Translations under genes and position numbers: made by a program
From: Methylobacterium bullatum
GTDB lineage: Bacteria > Pseudomonadota > Alphaproteobacteria > Rhizobiales > Beijerinckiaceae
Direction: 5' to 3'
NCBI RefSeq assembly: GCF_014845095.1
Contig: NZ_NKUG01000086.1
Span: 1-64,000 of the forward strand
DNA: 64,000 nt
Notes under the pieces: generated by a model
What the model was told of the DNA's origin: nothing
The model's input: only the letters and a program-made list of their open reading frames with translations
Databases searched by the model: none
In this document: positions 37,904 to 48,655 of the stretch, in pieces
Layout of the letters: each line of letters starts with the position of its first letter
Position numbering within the stretch: the first letter of the stretch is position 1

Positions 37904-38287
37904 ATGACCGACCTGGAGCAGAACAAGGCGACTGTGATCGCCTTCTATCGGTTGATGTTCGACGAGTGCCTGCCGCGCGAAGCCATCGAGCGTTATGCGG
38001 GCGACAACTACATCCAGCACAACCCGCATGTGGCGAACGGCAAGGACGGCTTCATCGCCTATTTCGAGCGCATGGCGCATGAATGGCCGGGCAAGCGGGT
38101 GGAGGTGAAGCGGGCGGTCGCCGAGGGGGATCTCGTGGTGCTGCATTGCCTGCAGCACTGGCCGGGCGACCACGATTATGCGGCCATCGATATCTTCCGG
38201 CTCGATCAGGGCGGCAGGATCGTCGAGCATTGGGACGTGCTGCAGATCCTGCCCGATTCCTCCGCCAATCCGAACGGGATGTTCTAG
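37904..38287 (+). CDS. SnoaL-like / NTF2-fold protein
   Basis: The 127-residue protein is a single NTF2-fold domain of the SnoaL-like polyketide-cyclase group: [68 protein letters not shown]. Such proteins are small dimers with a hydrophobic pocket and often unknown substrates; the conserved His, Asp and Trp are present. AGGGGAC precedes ATG 37904. No obvious partner is adjacent. Confidence 0.8.
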
Positions 38288-38761
38288 GGAGCGCGTGGCC
38301 CGCTTTCGGCCTTGGCCATTTCAGTCTCAGCCATTTCCAGTCTTGGCCATGTCATCCGGATGTCGTCTGGCCGATGACGTCTGGCGATGTGGGCACGTCA
38401 GAGCTCCCCACACTTTGGCATGATGCGCTGCCGGCCGCTTCCGCCGTTCCACGCTCGATCGTGCCCCGATCTGGACTCAGTTGGGCGTCGATGCGCTCGG
38501 TTTGCCCAGGATGCGTATCGAGATCCGCGTCACCGCCATCATTCCCTGAGCCATCCCGGCACGCTCTGCGGCGGGGCGTGGTGGCAGGATGTTTCGCATT
38601 GACAGCAACGCTTCGGCGTTCGACCTCTCGGTGGGCGCGGGGGATACCGCCGGGGCGTCGTTTCTCATTCTCGATAGCGGGTTCTCTACGGTCGGCCGCG
38701 TTGGTCCGCCACGAAAGAACTCGTTCCAAGTGGCTCCCTCGACTGGAGCCGGAGTCTCCGA
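38288..38761. other. Intergenic region with short imperfect tandem repeats; no supported gene
   Basis: At 38311-38353 three imperfect copies of a 15-16-base unit (CTTGGCCATTTCAGT, CTCAGCCATTTCCAGT, CTTGGCCATGTC) follow one another. The rest shows no gene with a ribosome site. Confidence 0.5.
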
Positions 38762-39178
38762 ATGATCGTCTACCTGTCAGCCCTTGCCGGTGGTGCCCTG
38801 ATCGGGACCTCCGCCGCCCTGCTCCTCGTCCTCAACGGCCGCATCGCCGGGATCAGCGGCATCGCCGCCGGGGCGATGCTGCCGTTGAGCCGGGACACGC
38901 CGTGGCGCTGGGCCTTCCTCGCCGGCCTGCTCCTCGGCCCGGTCCTGTATCGCCTCGCCTTCGGTGCATGGCCCGTCGTGCAGCTCGACGCACCGTGGAG
39001 CCTCATCGTCCTCGGCGGTCTCCTCGTCGGCTACGGGACGCGGCTCGGCGGGGGGTGCACCAGCGGCCACGGCGTCTGCGGCCTCGCCCGGCTGTCGCCC
39101 CGCTCCATCGCGGCGGTGGCGACCTTCATGGCCGCCGCCGCCGCGACGGTGTTCCTCGTCCGCCACGGAGGATGGTGA
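38762..39178 (+). CDS. YeeE/YedE family membrane protein, first half
   Basis: The 138-residue protein has four hydrophobic helices and the signature LGGGCTSGHGVCGLARLSPRS, a cysteine-bearing loop characteristic of the YeeE/YedE (TsuA-like) thiosulfate and sulfur-compound permeases. In many bacteria the permease is split into two genes, as here. The second half starts at the stop codon of this one (TGATG), so the two are co-translated and probably form one transporter. The encapsulin-cysteine desulfurase operon nearby also concerns sulfur, but is on the other strand. Confidence 0.87.
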   Translation: MIVYLSALAGGALIGTSAALLLVLNGRIAGISGIAAGAMLPLSRDTPWRWAFLAGLLLGPVLYRLAFGAWPVVQLDAPWSLIVLGGLLVGYGTRLGGGCTSGHGVCGLARLSPRSIAAVATFMAAAAATVFLVRHGGW

Positions 39179-39609
39179 TGGACACCTTGCGTTCCGCGGT
39201 GGGCTTGTTCGCCGGCCTCCTGTTCGGATTCGGCCTCGCTCTGTCGGGCATGATGGACCCGGAGCGCGTCCTCGGTTTTCTCGACATCGCCGGAGCCTGG
39301 GACCCGAGCCTCGCCTTCGTGCTGGGGGGCGCCGTCGGCGTCTCGGCCCTCAGCTACCTCCTCGTCAGGCGGATGCGGAAACCCGTTCTCGCGCAACGGT
39401 TCGAGATTCCCCATAACCGGCCGATCACCGCCAGCCTGATCGCGGGGGCCGCTCTGTTCGGCATCGGCTGGGGCCTCGTCGGCCTCTGTCCCGGCCCGGC
39501 TCTCGCCGGCCTGACGCTCGGCCTGCCTCAGGTGATCGGCTTCGTGGCGGCGATGGTGACCGGGATGCTGCTCCACCGCTTTACCACCGCTCGCCGCCGC
39601 GCCTCGTGA
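39178..39609 (+). CDS. YeeE/YedE family membrane protein, second half
   Basis: The 143-residue protein has about four helices with GLLFGFGLALSGMMDPERVLGFLDIAGAWDPSLAFVLGGAVGV and the second signature GIGWGLVGLCPGPALAGL, where the cysteine is conserved. It is the C-terminal equivalent of the single-chain YeeE permeases. ATG 39178 overlaps the upstream stop, with GGAGG six bases before; an in-frame ATG at 39172 is also possible. Transport of sulfur compounds such as thiosulfate is known for characterised members; the exact substrate here is not shown. Confidence 0.87.
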   Translation: MDTLRSAVGLFAGLLFGFGLALSGMMDPERVLGFLDIAGAWDPSLAFVLGGAVGVSALSYLLVRRMRKPVLAQRFEIPHNRPITASLIAGAALFGIGWGLVGLCPGPALAGLTLGLPQVIGFVAAMVTGMLLHRFTTARRRAS

Positions 39610-39722
39610 ACCGAGCCCGCCGGGCTCTCTGCAGGCGCGCCGGGAAGGATGGCCTTCGTGCTCCCCCGGTGACGGCATTGATCACGAACACCTGTGCCGT
39701 ATCGCCGTAAGGACAAGCCAGA

Positions 39723-40115
39723 ATGCATCATCGTCTTCTCCTGGCCGCGATCCTCATCGCGGGTTCGCTCGGCACTTCCGCCGTGGCCGAGACGCTCGCG
39801 CTCGAGGTGGCGGATGCCCAGGCCATGATCGATGACGGTGACGGCCGGATTTTCGTTCGCCTGACTCGTAGAAGCGCGACCGCACTTGCTGGTTTCACGC
39901 GGGCACATATCCGCCGACCGATCGCGGTTCTCGTCGACGGGAGGGTAAAGTCCACTCCGTTCATCCAAGAGCCGCTCGTCACCGGCGCCCTATCGGTCGG
40001 CGGTCTGGCCGACCGCGAGGAGGCCCTCGCCGTGTCGAAACGGCTGCGGAGCGGGCGGTCCGTCTTGACAGTGGCCCCGGCCGAATCGACTGGCCGCCAA
40101 GAACGCGCACCGTAG
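39723..40115 (+). CDS. Exported single-domain protein resembling the SecD P1 head
   Basis: The 130-residue protein has a signal peptide (MHHRLLLAAILIAGSLGTSAVAE). Its mature part resembles the P1 head subdomain of SecD: FVRLTRRSATALAGFTRAHIRRPIAVLVDGRVKS, then PFIQEPLVTGALSVGGLADREEALAVSKRLRSG. In SecD the same pattern (LT..N.GK.LAIVLDG.V.SAP.I.EPI..G...I.G....EA..LA..LRAG) lies in the large periplasmic loop. Here there are no membrane helices, so the domain is free in the periplasm. A role in secretion or as an independent binding module is unknown. Its stop lies inside a 17-base tandem duplication. Confidence 0.65.
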   Translation: MHHRLLLAAILIAGSLGTSAVAETLALEVADAQAMIDDGDGRIFVRLTRRSATALAGFTRAHIRRPIAVLVDGRVKSTPFIQEPLVTGALSVGGLADREEALAVSKRLRSGRSVLTVAPAESTGRQERAP

Positions 40116-40135
40116 GAGAACGCGCACCGTAGGAG
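40102..40135. repeat. Perfect 17-base tandem duplication across a stop codon
   Basis: Two exact copies of AACGCGCACCGTAGGAG (40102-40118 and 40119-40135). The first contains the TAG stop of the SecD-head-like gene. It is likely a recent slippage event. Confidence 0.8.
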
Positions 40136-40187
40136 GAAGCGCAGTGGAGCCGGTGAGCTTCGGCTCCAGCGAAGGGCGAGCTGCATG

Positions 40188-40225
40188 GCATTCGGCCCGG
40201 TCGGAGAACCGACCGGGCCGAATGC
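40188..40225 (-). terminator. Perfect 17-bp hairpin after the encapsulin operon
   Basis: Arms 40188-40204 and 40209-40225 pair without mismatch around an AGAA loop, about 30 bases past the stop of the cysteine desulfurase gene. No U-tract follows on either strand, but the stability and place suggest a transcript end or a shared end with the convergent secreted-protein gene. Confidence 0.5.
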
Positions 40226-40253
40226 TATCGCCTTGCGTCTTCGGGCCGTTGCG

Positions 40254-42227
40254 CTATCGGCGCGGCAGGCTGTGGAGCCCCTTCAGGAAGGTGTCGACGT
40301 CCGCGCGGGTGTTGTAGAAGGCCAGCGAGGCGCGCACCGACTGGTCGACGCCGAAGCGGCGCAGGGCCGGCAGGGCGCAATGGTGGCCCGAGCGCACGGC
40401 GATGCCGCGGGCGTCGAGGTGCTTGGCCACCGCTTCGTTGTCATGCCCGTCGACGACGAAGGACATGACGCTGGCTTTCTGTCGCGCGGTCCCGATCAGG
40501 CGCAGGCCCTTCACCTCGGCAAGCCCGGCTTGCGCGTATTCGAGCAGGTCGTGCTCGTAGGCCGCGATGCCGGGAAGTCCGACGCTCTCGAGGTAGTCCA
40601 GGGCCGCGCCGAGCCCCACCGCTCCCGCGATGTCCGGCGTGCCCGCCTCGAACTTCTCGGGAACGCCCTTGTAGACCGTCTTCGAGAAGGTGACGTCCTC
40701 GATCATGTGGCCGCCGCCCTGCCACGGAGGCATCGCCTCCAGCAGCGCGCGCTTGCCGTAGAGGGCGCCGATGCCCGTCGGCCCGAACACCTTGTGCCCG
40801 GAGAAGACGAGGAAGTCGGCGTCCAGCGCCTGAACGTCCAGTGGGATGTGCGGCGACGATTGCGCCGCATCCACCAGCACCGGCACCCCGTAGGCATGCG
40901 ACAGGGCGATGATCTCACGGACCGGGTTGATGGTGCCCAGAGCGTTGGCCACATGGGTGATCGAGACGATCTTGGTGCGGCCCGACAGGAGGGTCGCGAA
41001 CTGCTCGAAGATGATCTCGCCGCGATCGTCCACGGGAATCACGCGCAGGGTCGCCCCGGTCGCCTGGGTGAGGAGCTGCCAGGGGACGATGTTGGCGTGA
41101 TGCTCGATGGTCGAGACGATGATCTCGTCGCCCGGGCCGATATTGGCGCGACCGTAGGAGTTGGCGACGAGGTTGATCGCTTCCGTGGTGCCCCGGAGGA
41201 AGATGATCTCGTCCGTCGAGGCGGCGTTGATGAAGCGACGCACCTTCTCGCGCCCGCCCTCGAACAGGTCCGTGGAGCGCGCCGCGAGGGTGTGCGCGGC
41301 CCGGTGAATGTTCGAGTTGTGGCGGGCGTAGAACTCGCTCGTCGCGTCGATGACGCTCTGCGGCTTGTGGGTGGTGGCCGCATTGTCGAGCCAGACCAGC
41401 GGATGCCCGTTGATGCTCTGGTGCAGGGCCGGGAAGTCCTTGCGCACCCGCTCCACGTCGAAGGGGGCCGCCACCGGGCTGGAGCCCTGCGACGAGACAT
41501 GGGGCGCATGGCCGGGGCGAGGCTCGTGGCGAGTCGACGGGGCGGGCGCGGCGTTGCCCGTCCGGCTGCGGTCGGTCAGGAAATAGTACTCGCCCGATGA
41601 GAACGGCTCGTCGGCGATCTCCACCTTCCGGCCGGCGCGGGAGACCGTCTCCTGCGAGGCGTTCTGGCCCCGATGACCGGGCGCTTCCGGCACCAGGGAC
41701 GGCGCGAACCCATGCGCGAAGGCATTGGCGCGCGGGTGGTCCTTGGCGATCGTGGCGTGGAGATCGTGGCCGCCGGGGAGGAAGGCGGCGACATCGGCGA
41801 CGCTCGGCACGAAGAACTCGGGCAGGCCCCCACGGGGAGCCTGCGCCTCGGGATGGACCGAGGGAAATGCCGATGCTTGAGCGAAGCCCGGACCGGTGAG
41901 GCCGGGAAGGCCGACCGGAGGCGATCCGAACGAGCGGGCGGCCAGCGCCGAGGCGTCGGGCTGAAGGCCCGACGGCGCGGCGCCCGAGGGGATCGACGGC
42001 GTGCCGAGATCCGCTTTGGGGGCGAGGGGGTGGCCGAAGCCCTGGGGAATGTTCTCCAGGGCCTGCGGTGCTTGCGGCGTCTGCGGCAGGTTGGGGGTCA
42101 GGGGCGCGGACGCCGCCTGACCCTGACCGTAGATCTCGCGGGCGAGGCGCCCGACGAGATCCGCATGCGCCGTGTCGCCGAACACCCCGGTGGGGAGGCC
42201 GACAGACGGCGCGTTAAGCGTAGTCAT
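40254..42227 (-). CDS. Encapsulin cargo cysteine desulfurase (SufS-like) with long disordered leader
   Basis: The 657-residue protein has a C-terminal group II cysteine desulfurase (from FDVERVRKDFPALHQ, about 250, to the end). It shows the PLP-binding Lys479 (FSGHKVFGPTG) and the active-site Cys617 (RSGHHCALP), so it should take sulfur from cysteine. The first ~245 residues are Pro/Ala/Gly-rich and low in complexity, with short conserved-looking islands (GLPEFFVPSVADVAAFLPGG, SSGEYYFLTDRSR). This is typical of the leader that loads cysteine desulfurase into Family 2 encapsulins. The start overlaps the shell gene by 14 bases, so shell and cargo are co-translated. Confidence 0.92.
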   Translation of the reverse strand: MTTLNAPSVGLPTGVFGDTAHADLVGRLAREIYGQGQAASAPLTPNLPQTPQAPQALENIPQGFGHPLAPKADLGTPSIPSGAAPSGLQPDASALAARSFGSPPVGLPGLTGPGFAQASAFPSVHPEAQAPRGGLPEFFVPSVADVAAFLPGGHDLHATIAKDHPRANAFAHGFAPSLVPEAPGHRGQNASQETVSRAGRKVEIADEPFSSGEYYFLTDRSRTGNAAPAPSTRHEPRPGHAPHVSSQGSSPVAAPFDVERVRKDFPALHQSINGHPLVWLDNAATTHKPQSVIDATSEFYARHNSNIHRAAHTLAARSTDLFEGGREKVRRFINAASTDEIIFLRGTTEAINLVANSYGRANIGPGDEIIVSTIEHHANIVPWQLLTQATGATLRVIPVDDRGEIIFEQFATLLSGRTKIVSITHVANALGTINPVREIIALSHAYGVPVLVDAAQSSPHIPLDVQALDADFLVFSGHKVFGPTGIGALYGKRALLEAMPPWQGGGHMIEDVTFSKTVYKGVPEKFEAGTPDIAGAVGLGAALDYLESVGLPGIAAYEHDLLEYAQAGLAEVKGLRLIGTARQKASVMSFVVDGHDNEAVAKHLDARGIAVRSGHHCALPALRRFGVDQSVRASLAFYNTRADVDTFLKGLHSLPRR

Positions 42228-43605
42228 GGTAGTTGCCCAGCAGCACGTTATCGAGGCGTGCGATGGCGTCTTCCACCAGCACCGCGGCCGAGAAGTAGCG
42301 GGTCACGAGGTGCGAGGCGATGGAATGGTCGTTGGTGCCCATGTAGCGCACCGACAGGCCGGTCTCGATCTCGCCGGTGACGCCGGACTTCTGCAGGCCG
42401 ACCACGCCCTGTTCGCCTTCGCCGACGCGGAGCAGCAGGATTGAGGTGGTTTGGGCGCCGGTCACCGGGTCGATGTCGATGGGGAGCTTGTCGCTGGGCA
42501 CGATCGGCACGCCGCGCCAGGTGATGAAGGGCGAGCCGAACAGGTGGATCACCACCGGCGGCACGCCGCGGCGGGTGGCTTCACGGCCGAAGGCCGCAAT
42601 GGCGCGAGGATGGGCCACGAAGAAGGCGGGCTTCTTCCAGACCAGGGTCAGGAGCTCGTCGAGGTCGTCCGGGGTGGGCGGGCCGCCGCGCGTCGGGATG
42701 CGCTGGCGCTGGCTGACTTCGTGGAGCAGGCCGAACTCGGAATTGTTGAACAGCTCCCACTCTTCCCGCTCCTTCACGGCATCGACCGTGAGGCGGATCT
42801 GCTCGCGCAGCTGGTCGATCTCGTTGGAGTAGAGATCGGTGACGCGGGTGTGGGTGTGCAGGATCGTCTGGATCGTGGAGAGGTGGTACTCGCGCGGGTC
42901 GACCTCGTAATCGACATAGGTCGTGGGCAGGCGCGGCTCGCCGGTATGGACCGCCAGAAGCTCGATGCCCTGCTCGCCCTCGCTGTTGGTGTGGCCCTTG
43001 AGGCGGTCACGCTCTTCCACGAACTGGGAGATGCGCGAGCGGATGCCCTCGTCCTCGATGGCGGAGCGGTCCAGGGTGAGCAGCGTCACCGCCGAGAGCG
43101 CCTTCACGGCGGGAGCGGGCGCGTTCTCGCTCACGAGATCGTTGTCGCCGAAATAGTCGCCGCCGGTGGCCAGACCCTGGCGCAGGCGGTTCTTGAACGG
43201 GCCCGACAGGGTCAGTTCGACGGTGCCCTCGGCCACGACGGTGAGGCTGCGGCCGGTGGAGCCCTCCTCGGCGATGATCTCGCCCGCCTTGTGCTGGGAG
43301 ACGGTGAACTTGGAGGCCAGTGCCGACAGCTCGTTGTCGCCGAGGCGGCTGAACAGCGGGACGCTGCGCAGGGAGGCCGGGCGCACGGTGTGGGTGCCGC
43401 CGTCGTTGGCGAGGACAATCCTGCCGGGCTTGGCCAGCACCACGGCGCGGCGGTTGACCCGGTAGACGCCGCCGGCGACGTCGACGAAGGGCAGCAGGCG
43501 ATGGAACCAGCGGGGGGTGTTGGCCGCGTTCTGGACCGACGTGACGGTCGCCGTTGCAAGATTGCGTGCCGCCGAGGCGCTCACGCTCAGACCGGGTCCA
43601 CTCAT
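42214..43605 (-). CDS. Family 2B encapsulin shell protein with cNMP-binding-like insert
   Basis: The 463-residue protein has the Family 2 encapsulin shell (HK97 fold) in two parts: residues 1-70 (NAANTPRWFHRLLPFVDVAGGVYRVNRR) and about 225-463 (PTTYVDYEVDPREY, NNSEFGLLHEV, FGREATRRGVPPVVIHLFGSPFITWRGVPIVPSDK, RYMGTNDHSIASHLVTRYFSAAVL). A cyclic-nucleotide-binding-like domain is inserted at about 79-185 (VPLFSRLGDNELSALA, GGDYFGDNDLV). That insert defines Family 2B. The phosphate-binding cassette looks degenerate: APAPAVKA stands where cAMP binders have PRAAT, so the ligand arginine is missing. The start MSGPGLSVSA is chosen over a frame opening 51 residues earlier. Confidence 0.93.
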   Translation of the reverse strand: MSGPGLSVSASAARNLATATVTSVQNAANTPRWFHRLLPFVDVAGGVYRVNRRAVVLAKPGRIVLANDGGTHTVRPASLRSVPLFSRLGDNELSALASKFTVSQHKAGEIIAEEGSTGRSLTVVAEGTVELTLSGPFKNRLRQGLATGGDYFGDNDLVSENAPAPAVKALSAVTLLTLDRSAIEDEGIRSRISQFVEERDRLKGHTNSEGEQGIELLAVHTGEPRLPTTYVDYEVDPREYHLSTIQTILHTHTRVTDLYSNEIDQLREQIRLTVDAVKEREEWELFNNSEFGLLHEVSQRQRIPTRGGPPTPDDLDELLTLVWKKPAFFVAHPRAIAAFGREATRRGVPPVVIHLFGSPFITWRGVPIVPSDKLPIDIDPVTGAQTTSILLLRVGEGEQGVVGLQKSGVTGEIETGLSVRYMGTNDHSIASHLVTRYFSAAVLVEDAIARLDNVLLGNYHDYA

Positions 43606-43954
43606 GGGGGTTCGTCTCCGTATTGCGGCAGGAGGCGTCGGCCGGCCGTGACGCGGCGCATGCCGCATCGTAGCCGTGCCTGTCACGCGTCCGCTCTCGC
43701 TCGATGATGATCTTGGACTGATCTTGGTCGGCCCCCGCCGCCTCAGACAAAGCGTCACTGCGGGGACGCTTTGTTTCTAACGCTCGATCTTGAAGAGGGT
43801 CAATGAAATTCTGTTCTATAAATTCGTAGAACTAGAGAATGGATATTCTATTTTTCGTTATATAAGATAATTCAATTCTATAGTTCGACGGTATAGGAGA
43901 TTATTTATCTCGCCTGTACGGATGGATGGGAGAAGAAGAGTTGAAAAATCGTCC
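43606..43954. other. AT-rich leader between acetyltransferase and shell genes
   Basis: The 349-base gap is strongly AT-rich at 43790-43915, unlike its flanks. It holds a 10-bp hairpin (ACAAAGCGTC 43747-43756 with GACGCTTTGT 43765-43774) and three direct repeats, listed separately. No gene is supported. An internal promoter for shell and cargo is likely. Confidence 0.6.
43814..43887. promoter_or_regulatory. Three direct repeats TTCTAT-N2/3-TTCG, about 3 helical turns apart
   Basis: Copies start at 43814 (spacer AAA), 43846 (spacer TT) and 43876 (spacer AG); intervals are 32 and 30 bases. The first is also part of a GTTCTA/TAGAAC inverted pair. On the coding (minus) strand the unit reads CGAA-N2/3-ATAGAA. 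It lies about 210-280 bases before the shell start and looks like a cooperative binding array for an unknown regulator. Confidence 0.6.
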
Positions 43955-44821
43955 CTAGATCCCGTCACCGAAAAACTGGTCCATGCTGAGGGCGGGGTCC
44001 TCGGTGGGGCTGATGCGCGACACGACGCGGGCCGGCACGCCCGCGACGGTGGTGTGGGCGGGCACGTCGTGCAGCACCACGGCGGCGGCGGCGACCTTCG
44101 CGCCCTCGCCGACCCGGATATTGCCCAGCACCTTGGCGCCGACGCTGAGAAGGACCCCGCGTTCGATCTTCGGATGGCGGTCGCCGCTTTCCTTGCCGTT
44201 GCCCCCGAGGGTCACCGATTGCAGGATCGAGACATCGTCGGCGATCACCGTGGTCTCGCCGATGACGACGCCGGTGGCGTGATCGATGAACACGCCCGAT
44301 CCGATTCGCGCGGCGGGATGGATGTCGGCCCCGAACACCTCCGAGATCCGGCTCTGGATATGCAGCGCCAGGGTGGCGCGGCCCTGGTGCCAAAGCCAAT
44401 GGGCCACCCGGTAGCCCTCCAGAGAGGCCAGCCCTTTGTAGAATAGGAAGGGATCGAGATAGCGGCGGCAGGTGGGGTCGCGCTCGCGGATGGCGACGAT
44501 GTCGCGGACCGCGTGACCGCCCGCATGCGGGTCCGCCTGGAAGGCGGCGAGGCAGAGGTCGCGGGTGGACAGGCGGGAGAGATCGCCGTCGCCGAGGCGA
44601 TGGGCGAGCCGGTAGGCGAGGGCATGGATCAGGCTCGGCTGATCCAGGACCGTCGCCTGGTTGATGCCGGCATAAAGCGGCTCTTCGATCAACGCGGCTT
44701 CGGCCTCGGCGCGCATGGCACGCCAGAGGTCGGCTTCGACGGTGGTCTGGCTCACGGTGCGCAGGGGCGGACGGAGGATGTTGGTGGGAACGCTGCGCGT
44801 CGCCAGGCTGCCCGCTGTCAT
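43955..44821 (-). CDS. cysE: Serine O-acetyltransferase
   Basis: The 288-residue enzyme makes O-acetylserine, the precursor of cysteine. It has the helical N-terminal SAT domain (LWRAMRAEAEAALIEEPLYAGINQATVL, DPTCRRYLDPFLFYKGLASLEGYRVAHWLWHQGR) and the left-handed beta-helix of hexapeptide repeats (IGSGVFIDHATGVVIGETTVIADDVSILQSVTLGG). His residues in FIDHATG and in DRHPKI are at catalytic positions. Its place beside an encapsulated cysteine desulfurase is a known Family 2 cargo-operon theme and suggests supply of cysteine to the desulfurase. It lies 65 bases after a 63-residue gene on the same strand. Confidence 0.92.
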   Translation of the reverse strand: MTAGSLATRSVPTNILRPPLRTVSQTTVEADLWRAMRAEAEAALIEEPLYAGINQATVLDQPSLIHALAYRLAHRLGDGDLSRLSTRDLCLAAFQADPHAGGHAVRDIVAIRERDPTCRRYLDPFLFYKGLASLEGYRVAHWLWHQGRATLALHIQSRISEVFGADIHPAARIGSGVFIDHATGVVIGETTVIADDVSILQSVTLGGNGKESGDRHPKIERGVLLSVGAKVLGNIRVGEGAKVAAAAVVLHDVPAHTTVAGVPARVVSRISPTEDPALSMDQFFGDGI

Positions 44822-44886
44822 GATCGGTCTTCCACTCCTCGCGCCCGGCTCGCGAGAGCCTGCCTTTACCCCCGCAGACCGCGCGC

Positions 44887-45078
44887 TCAGCCGATGCGTT
44901 GGAACAGCGTCGCGATGTAGCCGACGAGCAGGCCGTGGCCCTCGAACTGGACGTTCACCGCCTCTGCCCCGTCGGGGCCGGATACGATGTCGACGATACG
45001 CCCCGTGGCGTGACGCCAGATGCCCAGCGCCTCGGCGACATCGAGTCTCGCGAACACGACCTGATCTCCGAGAACCAT
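44887..45078 (-). CDS. Small conserved-looking protein at the head of the encapsulin operon
   Basis: The 63-residue protein begins MVLGDQVVFARLDVAEALGIWRHATG and reads as a compact beta-barrel, SH3-like fold (VFARL, GRIVDIVS, AVNVQFEGHGLLVGYI). A strong ribosome site (GGAGGGAACG) precedes the ATG. It is the first gene of the minus-strand run through serine acetyltransferase, shell and cargo. I do not recognise a named family. A regulator or accessory of sulfur metabolism is possible but unproven. Confidence 0.65.
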   Translation of the reverse strand: MVLGDQVVFARLDVAEALGIWRHATGRIVDIVSGPDGAEAVNVQFEGHGLLVGYIATLFQRIG

Positions 45079-45550
45079 CGTTCCCTCCTCCGGGTATCGT
45101 TTTTCAGTGTTGGGGGATCGTCCGTGCGCCTGACGGCCAATGCCGGTCAGGACCTCACATGCCTCGAAACGCTCGTCTCATGGGTCGAACCTATGAGCTT
45201 TCGCCGAGTATCGGCATTCGTGCGAGGCGAGGCGTACACTCGGCATGCGCCGGGTGGATCGTCACGTCTGAGGGTAACAGTCCAAGGCGTAACGACACGG
45301 ATTTCCAATCCAAGCATTGCCTGCGGACAAACCTGTCTCGGGAGGCATGGTGCAGGCAGGCGGTTCTTTTTTTTGTCTCCCTGCATTGTGCATATCTTGG
45401 CTCGTTCGGGTCAACGAGAGTGATTTTCAAAGACCAGGCGCTTCCCGAAAGATCCTTCCCTCGAGTCCGGTGCGGGGAGCAGGCTTGTCCTTCCGCTTCG
45501 ATTCCCGGCCATCGGCCTCCGGGGCCGGCATCGCCGGTGTCTGACCCCGG
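45079..45550. other. Intergenic region upstream of the encapsulin operon, no supported gene
   Basis: This 472-base gap separates the 63-residue gene start from the end of the molybdopterin reductase gene. It contains a 13-base palindrome GGATT-TCC-AATCC (45299-45311) and a run of T at about 45366-45374. Open frames here lack protein character. It should carry the main promoter of the small gene-cysE-shell-cargo run. Confidence 0.5.
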
Positions 45551-46330
45551 TCAGATTCCGCTGAACCAGTTGTAGCCCTGGTCCTCCCAGTAGCCGCCGG
45601 GATAGTCGTTGGTCACGAAGACCGAGACGATGTGCTTGGGGCTCTTGAAGCCGAGCTTCGTCGGCACGCGCACCCGGAGGGGGTAGCCGTATTCGAGAGG
45701 CAGGGCGCTGCCGCCGAAATCCAGGGCCAGCACCGTCTGCGGATGGAGGGCGCTCGGCATGTCGAGGCTGCCGTAATAGCGGTCGGCGCATTTGAAGCCG
45801 ACATACTTCGCGGTGAGGTCGGCCCCGACCCGCTCCAGGAAGGCCTTCAGCGGCACGCCGCTCCACTGGCCGATCTGGCTCCAGCCCTCGATGCAGATGT
45901 GACGGGTGATCTGGCTCTCCTGCGGCAGGGCGCGCAGCTTTTGCAAGGTCCAGGGCGTCTTGTCGGCGACGAGGCCCGACACGTCGAGCTTCCAGGTCGC
46001 CTCGTCGATCTCGGGGATGTTGTCCGGCGGGTAGTAGGCGTTGAAGCGGAACGGCGTGTCGATCATGCTCGCCGGATAGGTCGGTGCCAACTTGTTCGGG
46101 TCGAACAGCCAGGCCTGGACCCGGTCGTTGGCACGCGACATCGCCCACAGCGTGCGGTCGATCAGCGTGCCGTTGGTGCCGGTGGAGAGGTCGCAGCCCG
46201 AAAGCAGCGACAGGGCGCCGAGAGACAGGCCCGAGCGCAGGAACAGGCGGCGCTCCAGCTTCACCAGTTCCGGTTGGATCTCCCGGCGAAGCGCGCGCAG
46301 GCGTTTCGCCTCGGTCTCGTCACGGCTCAT
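45551..46330 (-). CDS. Periplasmic molybdopterin oxidoreductase (MsrP/sulfite-oxidase fold)
   Basis: The 259-residue protein has a Tat-type leader (ERRLFLRSGLSLGALSLLSGC, twin arginine at 27-28) ending in a lipobox, with Cys46 as the likely lipid anchor. The catalytic domain has the molybdenum-ligand cysteine, Cys146, in HICIEGWSQIGQWSGVPL, and LEYGYPLRVRVPTKLGFKSPKHI. It belongs to the sulfite-oxidase superfamily, like MsrP (YedY), which repairs oxidised methionines in the periplasm. It is shorter than MsrP and is paired with a cytochrome b rather than a clear MsrQ. The start overlaps the cytochrome gene as ATGA. Confidence 0.87.
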   Translation of the reverse strand: MSRDETEAKRLRALRREIQPELVKLERRLFLRSGLSLGALSLLSGCDLSTGTNGTLIDRTLWAMSRANDRVQAWLFDPNKLAPTYPASMIDTPFRFNAYYPPDNIPEIDEATWKLDVSGLVADKTPWTLQKLRALPQESQITRHICIEGWSQIGQWSGVPLKAFLERVGADLTAKYVGFKCADRYYGSLDMPSALHPQTVLALDFGGSALPLEYGYPLRVRVPTKLGFKSPKHIVSVFVTNDYPGGYWEDQGYNWFSGI

Positions 46331-46974
46331 GAGCGCGTCTCCACGGGGTCGAGGGGAATGCGGGCGCGGCCTGTGACCATCGCGACGAGGGTGCGCGGCA
46401 CCAGGATGACGAGCGCGAGATGGAGCAGGATGAAGCCGACGAGGCCGGACATGGCGAGGAAATGCACGCGCCGCGCCCATTCATAGCCGCCGAACAAAGC
46501 GGCGAGTCCCTGCAACTGGACCGGTTTCCACAAAGCGAGGCCGGAGGCGACGAGGAGGATTCCGAGAAGGAACGCCACCAGATAGGCGACCCTCTGCACC
46601 GCGTTGTACTCGCCGATCCGGTGGGCGAGGCGCAGCCTGACGGCGTCGGCGGCGTCGCGCCAGAACGCCCTCGGGCTCAGCGGCAGGAACGATCTGGCGA
46701 AATGCCGTGCGAACAGGCCGTAGAGGACGTAGGCGAGGCCGTTCAGGGCGAACAACCACATGGCGGCGAAGTGCCAGGCGAGCGCCCCTCCCAGCCATCC
46801 GCCGAGGGTCGCCCATTTCGGGAAGACGAAGGGGAAAAACGGCGAGGCGTTGTAGATCGCCCAGCCGCTGAACAGCATGCAGAACACCGCGACCGCATTG
46901 ATCCAGTGGGTCACGCGCACGATGAGCGGGTGGATCACCGTGATGCGAAACTGCGTGTTCGAGGAGACGGTCAT
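46327..46974 (-). CDS. Cytochrome b/b6 membrane partner of the molybdopterin enzyme
   Basis: The 215-residue protein has four to five membrane helices with histidines for two b hemes: IVRVTHWINAVAVFCMLFSGWAI, LAWHFAAMWLFALNGLAYVLYGL, VQRVAYLVAFLLGILLVASGLAL and RVHFLAMSGLVGFILLHLALVILV. It resembles Ni,Fe-hydrogenase/formate-dehydrogenase-type cytochrome b561 subunits. It should pass electrons from quinol to the downstream molybdopterin protein, whose start codon overlaps its stop. MTVSSNTQ at 46974 has AGGA at a good distance; the frame opens at 46983. Confidence 0.88.
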   Translation of the reverse strand: MTVSSNTQFRITVIHPLIVRVTHWINAVAVFCMLFSGWAIYNASPFFPFVFPKWATLGGWLGGALAWHFAAMWLFALNGLAYVLYGLFARHFARSFLPLSPRAFWRDAADAVRLRLAHRIGEYNAVQRVAYLVAFLLGILLVASGLALWKPVQLQGLAALFGGYEWARRVHFLAMSGLVGFILLHLALVILVPRTLVAMVTGRARIPLDPVETRS

Positions 46975-47030
46975 CCAGAACATCCTATGAGCGGTGGCGT
47001 CTCGGTCCCCGCTCCCATCCGCGACCTCAT

Positions 47031-47129
47031 CCTGAGGCGCCGGAGCGAAGCGAAGGCCTCGAAGGAGATCTCCAGATATCGCTGTGCGTTCCGGAGGGCT
47101 TCTTCGAGGCCGCTTCGCGGCACCTCAGG
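47031..47129. repeat. Imperfect palindromic intergenic repeat, family C
   Basis: Left arm CCTGAGGCGCCGGAGCGAAG followed by CGAAGGCCTCGAAGGAG pairs with CTTCTTCGAGGCCGC and TTCGCGGCACCTCAGG (right arm 47099-47129). Hairpins of this CCTGAGGTGC...GGCCTCGAAG type are unlike families A and B in this window. It lies between the second paralogous periplasmic protein and the cytochrome b gene. Confidence 0.6.
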
Positions 47130-47194
47130 GGAGGTGTGTGGGTGGGGGAAGCGGTCGACGAGGCTTGTGAATGGCTTCGTCGACGTTGCCTCAT

Positions 47195-47794
47195 TCACAT
47201 CGACGGGACGGTGCCGTTGCGGCCGACGATGAGGATCACGGCGGTGGGCTTGCCGTCCGTGCCCTTCTTTGTGAAGGCCACGACCTTCGCTCCGTCGACG
47301 ACGATGGACTTGTCACCCGGATCGACCAGGGTCACCGGCACGTCGTCCGGAACATTCACCTTCTTCTCACCGCCCTGGTACTTAACCAGAAGGGTTCGCC
47401 CCTCGGTGCCGGAGATGGTGCCGATGGCGCCGTTGGTCATGGTGGAGTTGGAGCCTAGATCCCACGGGTAATGACCGTCCGCCGTGCCACGCAGGGAGGA
47501 GGCGAAGACGGTGACCTGGAGCGCCTTCTGCGAACCGTCCGGCTGCGGGATCGCCGCGGTGCCGATGTAGCTGTCGGGCTTGATGTCGGTGATCTTGCCG
47601 GTGGAGGCCGCCAGCACCTTCACGTCGGGTGCCATGCTGACCGTCAGTGCCTCGCCCACGCGCGGCTTGATCGTCACGGCCGTGCCGTCGACCTTCTCGA
47701 TGGTGCCGCGATAGCGCGTGATGTCGTCGGCCTGGGCGGCGGTGGCCGTCACGGCGAGGGTCAGGGTGAGCGTCGTCAGGAAGGATTTCAGCAT
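47195..47794 (-). CDS. Periplasmic protein of unknown function, paralog 2
   Basis: The 199-residue protein has a signal peptide (MLKSFLTTLTLTLAVTATAAQADD) and an all-beta mature part of repeated short strands: YRGTIEKVDGTAVTIKPRVGEALTVSMAPDVKVLAA, DSYIGTAAIPQPDGSQKALQVTVFA, LRGTADGHYPWDL and a C-terminus ending GRNGTVPSM. The first segment is similar to the OB-like pattern of DUF5666 proteins. It is a clear paralog of the gene just upstream (same order of blocks and same end). It lies upstream of cytochrome b and the molybdopterin reductase on the same strand, 220 bases away across a repeat. Confidence 0.7.
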   Translation of the reverse strand: MLKSFLTTLTLTLAVTATAAQADDITRYRGTIEKVDGTAVTIKPRVGEALTVSMAPDVKVLAASTGKITDIKPDSYIGTAAIPQPDGSQKALQVTVFASSLRGTADGHYPWDLGSNSTMTNGAIGTISGTEGRTLLVKYQGGEKKVNVPDDVPVTLVDPGDKSIVVDGAKVVAFTKKGTDGKPTAVILIVGRNGTVPSM

Positions 47795-47906
47795 GGCGGT
47801 TCCTCGATGGTTCGGCGTCGTTGTGGTCGGGGCGGAGTGATAGAATCCGGCCCCGGTGCCGGGGCTGCGCCGCCGCCCCGGAAGGGTGTGTTCGCGGGGC
47901 TGCCGC

Positions 47907-48512
47907 CTACATGGGCGGGACGGTGCCGTTCTCGCCGACGATCATCCTGTCGGCGACCATCGTGCCGGCGGCATCCGCCTTGGTGATCGCCACCACGCGG
48001 GCGCCGACCTTGATGACGGATGTGTCGGAGGGGTTGAGGGAGACGATCGGCACGTCCTCGGGGACCGTGATGGTCTTCTCGCCGCCCTTGTAGGTCACGG
48101 TGATCGTGCGGCCGGTCGTGCCCGCGAGGGCGCCCACGGCGCCGTTCGTCATCGTGTTCTCCTTCTCGAGGTCCCACGGATAATGGCCGTCGCCCGTGCC
48201 GCGCATGCTCGGGGCGAAGACGGCGACTTCGAGGGCCTTGAGGGTGCCATCGGCCTGGGGCGTCGCGGCTGTGCCGACGTAGCTGTCGGGCTTGATGTCG
48301 CCGATCTCGGCCTTGCTGGCGGCGGCCACCCTCATCGCATCGGCGAACTTCACCGAGACGGCCTGACCGATGCGGGGCTTGATCGTGACGTGATCGGCCG
48401 CGACGGATTCGATCGTTCCGCGCACGCGGACCAGTGGAGAATCGGCCAGGACGGGCAGGCCGGAGGACAGGCCGACGCACAGGGTGGCGGCCGCGATGAT
48501 CCGTCGTGTCAT
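47907..48512 (-). CDS. Periplasmic protein of unknown function, paralog 1
   Basis: The 201-residue protein has a signal peptide (MTRRIIAAATLCVGLSSGLPVLAD). It has the same block order as its downstream paralog: VRGTIESVAADHVTIKPRIGQAVSVKF, DSYVGTAATPQADGTLKALEVAVFAPSMRGTGDGHYPWDL, KGGEKTITVPEDVPIVSLNPSDTSVIKVGARV, ending GENGTVPPM. The two genes are 112 bases apart and arose by tandem duplication. ATG 48512 is chosen because it starts the signal peptide; the frame opens 39 residues earlier. Function unknown. Confidence 0.7.
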   Translation of the reverse strand: MTRRIIAAATLCVGLSSGLPVLADSPLVRVRGTIESVAADHVTIKPRIGQAVSVKFADAMRVAAASKAEIGDIKPDSYVGTAATPQADGTLKALEVAVFAPSMRGTGDGHYPWDLEKENTMTNGAVGALAGTTGRTITVTYKGGEKTITVPEDVPIVSLNPSDTSVIKVGARVVAITKADAAGTMVADRMIVGENGTVPPM

Positions 48513-48655
48513 GGAATGCCTTGCGCTGGAGCGATCCCGGCTGTCGGGACCCTCGCCGGACGCTTCCGCCTGCACGGCGGGAAGCGCTCGGACAACGCGC
48601 GATGTGGCATCGGGTTCGTATGCGCACAAATCAATTGCGCGCTATCATGGACCCG

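Follow-up and report, generated by a model that had tools for sequence, protein, structure and literature searches.

The window analyzed here is a 64,000-nucleotide stretch of Methylobacterium bullatum contig NZ_NKUG01000086.1, from a genome of 4.86 Mb. Four genes on its minus strand encode a 63-residue protein, a serine O-acetyltransferase (SAT), an encapsulin shell protein and a cysteine desulfurase (CD). An earlier note, made from the letters of this DNA, had described these four genes, and each was confirmed in its position. The features of the locus are listed below, with lengths in amino acids (aa).

40254..42227, minus strand: cysteine desulfurase cargo, 657 aa, SufS-type domain at about residues 256-654, single Cys (C617) in RSGHHCALP (NF041166, PF00266)
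41478..42227, minus strand: predicted disordered cargo leader, residues 1-250, from the predicted local distance difference test (pLDDT)
42129..42170, minus strand: leader motif A, AHADLVGRLAREIY, residues 20-33, putative counterpart of LARLANEFFS in Family 2A cargo (modelled helix, relatives)
41571..41597, minus strand: leader motif B, SGEYYFLTD, residues 211-219, putative counterpart of AASPYYFLDG (relatives)
42214..42227, minus strand: 14-base overlap of shell end and cargo start, coding the shell tail DYA-stop and the cargo start MTTL
42214..43605, minus strand: Family 2B encapsulin shell protein, 463 aa, HK97 fold, ATG at 43605
42556..42573, minus strand: fivefold-pore segment RRGVPP, residues 345-350, Pro349 aligned to Pro196 of SrpI, the Family 2A shell of Synechococcus elongatus
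43006..43398, minus strand: inserted domain resembling those that bind cyclic nucleotide monophosphates (cNMP), about residues 70-200 (PF00027, 34.6 bits, cut-off 27.5; Foldseek to PKG domains)
43775..43803, minus strand: probable shell-cargo promoter, TTGAC at 43803-43799 and TTAGAA at 43780-43775, 17-bp spacer
43804..43818, minus strand: proximal palindrome, TAGAACAGAATTTCA, adjoining the -35 element
43897..43911, minus strand: distal palindrome, GAGATAAATAATCTC, centre 101 bp ahead of TTGAC
43955..44821, minus strand: SAT, 288 aa (PF06426, PF00132; TIGR01172, 223.1 bits, cut-off 210.65)
44887..45078, minus strand: conserved 63-aa protein with genus relatives and no assigned function

The shell protein scored 572.8 bits against the Family 2B model NF041163 (encap_f2b; cut-off 400), and a Pfam search placed PF00027 ahead of PF19307. 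It combines the HK97 fold with a cNMP-type domain inserted in the E-loop, as in Family 2B, and the presence of this insert separates it from Family 2A, whose shells are without one. The Family 2A model also exceeded its cut-off (423 vs. 380) because the HK97 part is common to both families. The Family 2B shell with a cNMP-type insert that the earlier note had described was thus upheld by the NF041163, PF00027 and PF19307 matches, and the 14-base overlap that it reported was exact. An overlap of this length starting with ATGACTA was observed in all 22 genus loci read; 14-base overlaps were also found in one Azospirillum 2A operon and one Kitasatospora 2B operon. The shell was 99.6% identical to that on another M. 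bullatum record.

The desulfurase scored 818.7 bits against NF041166, above the cut-off of 800 that marks a cargo desulfurase, and PF00266 covered residues 278-647 (E-value 6.9e-148). C617 and K479 were unvarying across 17 cargoes. In the AlphaFold2 model, pLDDT was below 50 at CD residues 1-22, 32-103 and 105-251, and a helix was modelled in the leader (residues 20-33), which bears out the disordered leader of the earlier note (given there as about 245 residues) at a length of about 250. Family 2A cargo requires its disordered leader for loading, and that leader holds LARLANEFFS and AASPYYFLDG, according to the available part of PMC8049743. Putative counterparts of both published motifs, matched to them by eye, are present in the N-terminal leader of the window cargo. 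At L174 (9233-12742), the cargo frame continues without a stop into transporter-like sequence (1170 codons).

The combination of insert and desulfurase that the earlier note had singled out is not new but already in print: the accessible portion of PMC8346489 (Andreas and Giessen, 2021) describes 199 operons of Family 2B that include a cysteine desulfurase, from 9 phyla, and names serine O-acetyltransferases and rhodaneses as their most enriched accessory genes. The window system therefore belongs to a known kind and is a fresh example of the published compartment type, a Family 2B shell with a cysteine desulfurase. An open-access library searched for encapsulin together with Methylobacterium yielded one paper, on Acetobacteraceae genomes as judged by its listing.

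A survey of which Family 2B shells adjoin desulfurase genes, proposed in the earlier note, was made on named genome contigs with a Kitasatospora-led shell query; the best 80 of 590 relatives were used, and the survey is therefore biased to Actinomycetota. Further surveys, of 392, 387 and 292 genomes from the phyla of L089, L147 and L098, respectively, added to these relatives. A desulfurase was scored as present within about 1.5 kb to 6 kb around each shell, contig permitting. Family 2B shells with a nearby desulfurase were found in several phyla (Streptomyces, Kitasatospora and a few other actinobacteria, Planctomycetota, Cyanobacteriota, Sporomusa of the Bacillota, and Verrucomicrobiota).

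The fivefold-pore residue separated these shells from the others. SrpI Gly194 and Pro196 line the inside of the fivefold pore, according to the part of PMC8049743 available. Among the 156 Family 2B rows left after removal of 12 duplicate loci, Pro stood at the pore place in all 43 shells with a nearby desulfurase (8 from Methylobacterium), whereas the 113 shells with no desulfurase seen had Tyr (101), another residue (10) or Pro (2). The two exceptions, L087 and L096, stop at contig edges with the cargo region out of view. The tail pattern [YFH][HY][DEN][YL] was present in 41 of 43 desulfurase-type shells and in 2 of 113 others, again L087 and L096, and the pore Pro was found in all four Family 2A shells of the alignment. 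As read from these alignments, the pore residue (Pro, or mostly Tyr) tracks the cargo and not the insert; the pore and tail states are inherited in few clades and hence do not count as independent events.

Within the genus, 49 of 59 Methylobacterium genomes (the window's own and 58 others) gave a match above the Family 2B cut-off, that of G445 being partial, and the other 10 gave weak matches only. A desulfurase match stood beside the shell at all 31 genus loci first read, the window included, and a SAT match at 30 of them. In 21 of 22 longer genus stretches (the window, the other M. bullatum record and 20 more, from genomes that overlap the 31 loci), the 63-aa gene is followed by SAT, the shell and the desulfurase in turn. 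At L179 of G445, the shell match was partial, and neither SAT nor the 63-aa gene turned up in the stretch; this locus is possibly decaying, and its shell row was misread in the 22-stretch table of overlap and Cys because the shell is truncated. The shells closest to that of the window among 12 compared 2B-CD shells were verrucomicrobial (L147, 64%; L243, 62%), the others reaching 46-49%. Full-length Family 2B shells above the cut-off occurred in 5 of 398 genomes of the same phylum, each belonging to Methylobacterium, and 12 other genomes above the cut-off gave matches of the Family 2A pattern, with no insert.

Cysteine was absent from 31 of 32 distinct genus shells, L051 having one (the genus alignment holds 33 rows, with the window entered twice). 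The 69 other Family 2 shells carried 1 to 6 Cys each, with Family 2A counts taken on whole open frames that may include upstream residues. A pore-side Cys (window place 343) was present in 25 of 32 aligned rows, with Ala in the 6 Methylobacterium rows. The verrucomicrobial L242, a Family 2B shell beside a desulfurase, was also Cys-free, with Ala at this place, and is a counter-example to a genus-only state. In 20 of 22 genus cargoes the catalytic Cys was the only one, the exceptions being L160 (two) and L174 with its stop-free frame. One-Cys catalytic parts were also found in desulfurases of Acinetobacter, Variovorax, Kitasatospora and L147; the unusual state is therefore limited to the shell. 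The loss in the genus is a single inherited state, and species counts are therefore not independent. A Cys-free genus shell is a practical start for a reactive-sulfur container.

The SAT-shell spacer is 349 bp long and contains a conserved promoter; the shell-CD pair is therefore probably transcribed separately. The operon of the earlier note holds as to the order of its four genes, and a single four-gene transcript as the only one was rejected on account of this promoter. Spacers from 20 of the 21 SAT-bearing stretches were analyzed, L177 being omitted for its spacer of 1652 bp. All 20 spacers had TTGAC 176-257 bp ahead of the shell start and a TA about 23 bp further along. Palindromy scored free of any consensus had two peaks ahead of TTGAC, one at 101 bp (score 4.3 of 7) and one at 8 bp (3.45 of 7), over a background of 1.88 (standard deviation 0.47), and the top two places were unchanged when seven near relatives were removed. 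The two palindrome centres are about 93 bp apart, and the intervening sequence is poorly conserved. A consensus-guided scan gave a spacing of 101 bp in 9 of 20 spacers and of 101-105 bp in 16; the exceptions were the window, whose best site here was not the distal palindrome, and the other M. bullatum record (both 70 bp), and two others (67 and 130 bp). Across 200 shuffles, at most 4 loci ever had a common spacing.

When one mismatch was allowed, GARAATNNNATTCT matched 40 times in the window's own genome and its reversed control 7 times; in four congeners the counts were 29-36 vs. 4-13. These counts are strand-wise, and each palindromic place scores twice. One of 7 own-genome palindromic places fetched lay 173 bp before a gene of cysteine-synthase type (PF00291). 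Congener G408 has a site 67 bp before a gene for a flavodoxin/FAD reductase that is similar to a sulfite reductase subunit; both gene starts are guessed. Another of the 7 (L276, 286-2499) sits where an AsnC-type regulator gene has its 3' end, and two adjacent genes of the PAPS-reductase family run divergently from this regulator gene. Assignment of the palindrome as an Lrp/AsnC site failed its control, 48 of 200 permuted consensus sequences performing equally well.

Both the SAT and the 63-residue open reading frame of the earlier note are present on the minus strand. The 63-aa frame had no match in Pfam or NCBIfam; its relatives precede SAT in 21 of 22 Methylobacterium stretches, and a hidden Markov model of 12 rows found no relative beyond the genus loci among the loci then gathered. 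A small Aliarcobacter gene adjoining SAT codes for a different peptide, which is hydrophobic. Two further genes flank the locus on the plus strand.

38762..39178, plus strand: YeeE/YedE-type sulfur-transport protein, first of a pair (PF04143, 34.7 bits, cut-off 27)
39175..39609, plus strand: DUF6691 partner of the YeeE-type protein, start approximate (PF20398, 135.1 bits)

The DUF6691 partner scored 12.7 bits against PF04143, under the cut-off. This pair flanks the locus, on one of its two sides, in 14 of 22 genus stretches, and 2 of the remaining 8 are short. Between cargo and pair, at 39723-40115, a 130-aa protein matched the SecDF P1 head domain; none of the other 21 genus stretches gave such a match. 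A molybdopterin oxidoreductase and cytochrome b561-type pair, which we read as MsrPQ-like, lies at 45551-46983, upstream of the 63-aa gene, and was also seen in L067, L162 and L171.

With moderate confidence, we propose that the system is a Family 2B encapsulin that would hold the cysteine desulfurase in a cysteine-fed, sulfur-sequestering compartment. By analogy with solved relatives, 60 shell proteins would form a T=1 container, and the disordered leader may load the cargo through its counterparts of the two Family 2A motifs. Cysteine would pass the narrow, Pro-lined fivefold pore, the desulfurase would strip its sulfur, and sulfur may accumulate inside as in a Family 2A system, for which Benisch reportedly described storage in 2024. 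The SAT gene ahead of the shell could supply the cysteine precursor, a function assigned from its family, transport may likewise contribute to the supply, and the shell-cargo promoter would be under a regulator binding the two palindromes and perhaps serving cysteine synthesis too. The sulfur role suggested in the earlier note is supported, pore residue and cargo both being of the type found in sulfur compartments of Family 2A; the ligand-responsive gate is not, as discussed below.

Several points weigh against this proposal. The YYFL segment by itself failed to load cargo, according to the part of PMC8049743 available. The SrpI residues near cargo density, F262 and Y273, correspond to Y421 and H432 in the window shell. 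Five of the 7 own-genome palindromic places were near no recognised sulfur gene, one of them by a DmmA-like gene, and no rhodanese was found among the 12 scanned window proteins (37904-48629). Furthermore, SufS-type enzymes usually hand sulfur to acceptors, and storage is not their sole use. As a tentative alternative, the shell may house the SufS-type desulfurase with no sulfur storage and channel persulfide to an acceptor dedicated to cofactors or Fe-S clusters. A co-regulated rhodanese is proposed as acceptor in the portion of PMC8346489 at hand, whereas the scanned window proteins include none, and the genome has a separate SufS (C31; TIGR01979, 562 bits) and an adjoining PF00266 enzyme for housekeeping.

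The insert of the window shell is alignable with those of Streptomyces, Kitasatospora and Nonomuraea shells. It was more variable than the remainder of the protein (mean pairwise identity 0.80 vs. 0.96), and the median ratio of nonsynonymous to synonymous substitution rates (dN/dS) was 0.27 in the insert vs. 0.08 in the HK97 part (461 pairs). The canonical phosphate-binding cassette has Glu and Arg (FGE....PR). The pocket motif of the window insert, FGDNDLVSENAPAPA (residues 152-166), has Pro163 in the Arg place and lacks the Glu-plus-Arg cassette of a functional cNMP domain. Pro163 was unvarying in 33 of 33 aligned genus rows, and Asp occupied the Glu place in 7 of the 8 genus rows of a separate set. 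The dN/dS of 0.27 together with the lost cassette therefore argues that the insert is selected, though hardly as a cyclic-nucleotide site, and in the compartment proposed here it would be a fast-evolving module with no cyclic-nucleotide gate. A complete FGE and PR cassette was found in 2 of 156 non-duplicate 2B rows, the planctomycete L089 and L096. Their cassettes read FGEIALIKQGPRTA and FGEIALLQDCPRKA, respectively, and L089 adjoins a desulfurase.

Binding of some other small molecule by the insert, to regulate entry or partner docking, is possible though doubtful. The purifying selection and a stretch after the pocket, KALSAVTLLTLD, unvarying in 33 rows, would be consistent with it, whereas no ligand is known, the pocket sequence varies between 2B-CD lineages, and dN/dS is threefold that of the HK97 part. 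Gating of the pore through cAMP or cGMP sensed by the insert is very improbable: the PF00027 score and the fold match to PKG domains favor this, but the fixed Pro163 and the frequent Asp oppose it, as does PMC12407261, which in the part available cites its reference 35 for a lack of cyclic-nucleotide binding by the Family 2B insert. The same evidence speaks against the ligand-responsive gating suggested by the earlier note. Among desulfurase shells that share a type of cargo, the pocket is broken in Methylobacterium and apparently intact in planctomycetes, and a direct comparison of binding and flux is therefore possible. A terpenoid-type 2B shell lying beside an unrelated desulfurase would fit the 2B model match, but its probability is negligible given the CD-type pore and tail, the overlap in 22 of 22 loci, the leader motifs and the lack of a terpene gene among the 12 scanned window proteins.

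Shell trees were built from 78 rows and, in a second tree, from 63 of these 78. In both, the 2B-CD shells lay between Family 2A and the other 2B shells; in the 63-row tree, Family 2A and the non-CD 2B shells were each set apart by a branch with support of 100/100. Approximately unbiased (AU) tests on the shell tree did not decide between the arrangements: a single 2B-CD clade was not rejected (p 0.44), Methylobacterium and L147 grouped with five others outscored the free tree (p 0.72), and Methylobacterium and L147 joined to non-CD 2B had p 0.27. Rooted with 17 SufS outgroup rows, the cargo tree (11 of 20 2A and 11 of 16 other 2B-CD cargoes) placed the encapsulin desulfurases in one clade (100/99), with the 2A cargoes (97/99) nested among 2B-CD (96/91, 95/89); 2A likewise fell inside 2B-CD with one SufS outgroup row. 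The AU test gave p 0.088 against one 2B-CD clade, and the nesting therefore only suggests that the insert was lost in the Family 2A ancestor.

A wider scenario, which we consider unlikely, is that 2B desulfurase shells are ancestral, that the insert came first and was lost once to give Family 2A, that its pocket decayed (remaining whole in, e.g., planctomycetes), and that the Methylobacterium compartment became nearly thiol-free under a cysteine-regulon operator. If true, such a compartment would be a dedicated way to hold reactive sulfur in a container that is itself unreactive. The value of the locus lies in the pore rule, the broken vs. intact insert pocket, the Cys-free shell and the palindromes, each simply testable; two open questions thereby become testable, the purpose of the Family 2B insert and what separates sulfur shells from other 2B shells.

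Among known systems, the window resembles the Family 2B CD operons in the available part of PMC8346489, with which it shares the cNMP-insert shell, the CD cargo with disordered leader and the SAT neighbour; it differs from them in the 63-aa gene before SAT, the two-palindrome shell-CD promoter and the Cys-free shell. The Family 2A SrpI/CyD system of S. elongatus (PDB 6X8M; PMC8049743, in the part available) is alike in its SAT neighbour and SufS-type cargo, in the leader motifs and in a shell of HK97 fold with the pore G-V-P-P, but has no insert and no overlap between shell and cargo genes, and its cluster includes cysK and rhodanese genes. The Acinetobacter baumannii Family 2A encapsulin (PDB 8T6R; 56% identity over 261 aligned residues) likewise has a shell gene followed by a CD gene in a sequenced strain and, unlike the window, no insert. 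The Streptomyces 2B shells 9BHU, 9BJE and 9BIX share the insert position (44-55% identity over aligned parts) and, to the extent that they are described, are not CD shells (for the S. lydicus pair, the part of PMC12407261 available). The compared non-CD 2B shells differ from the window in having mostly Tyr at the pore place and no YHDY tail, and the S. lydicus system, as described in that same part of PMC12407261, has two shell proteins, unlike the window.

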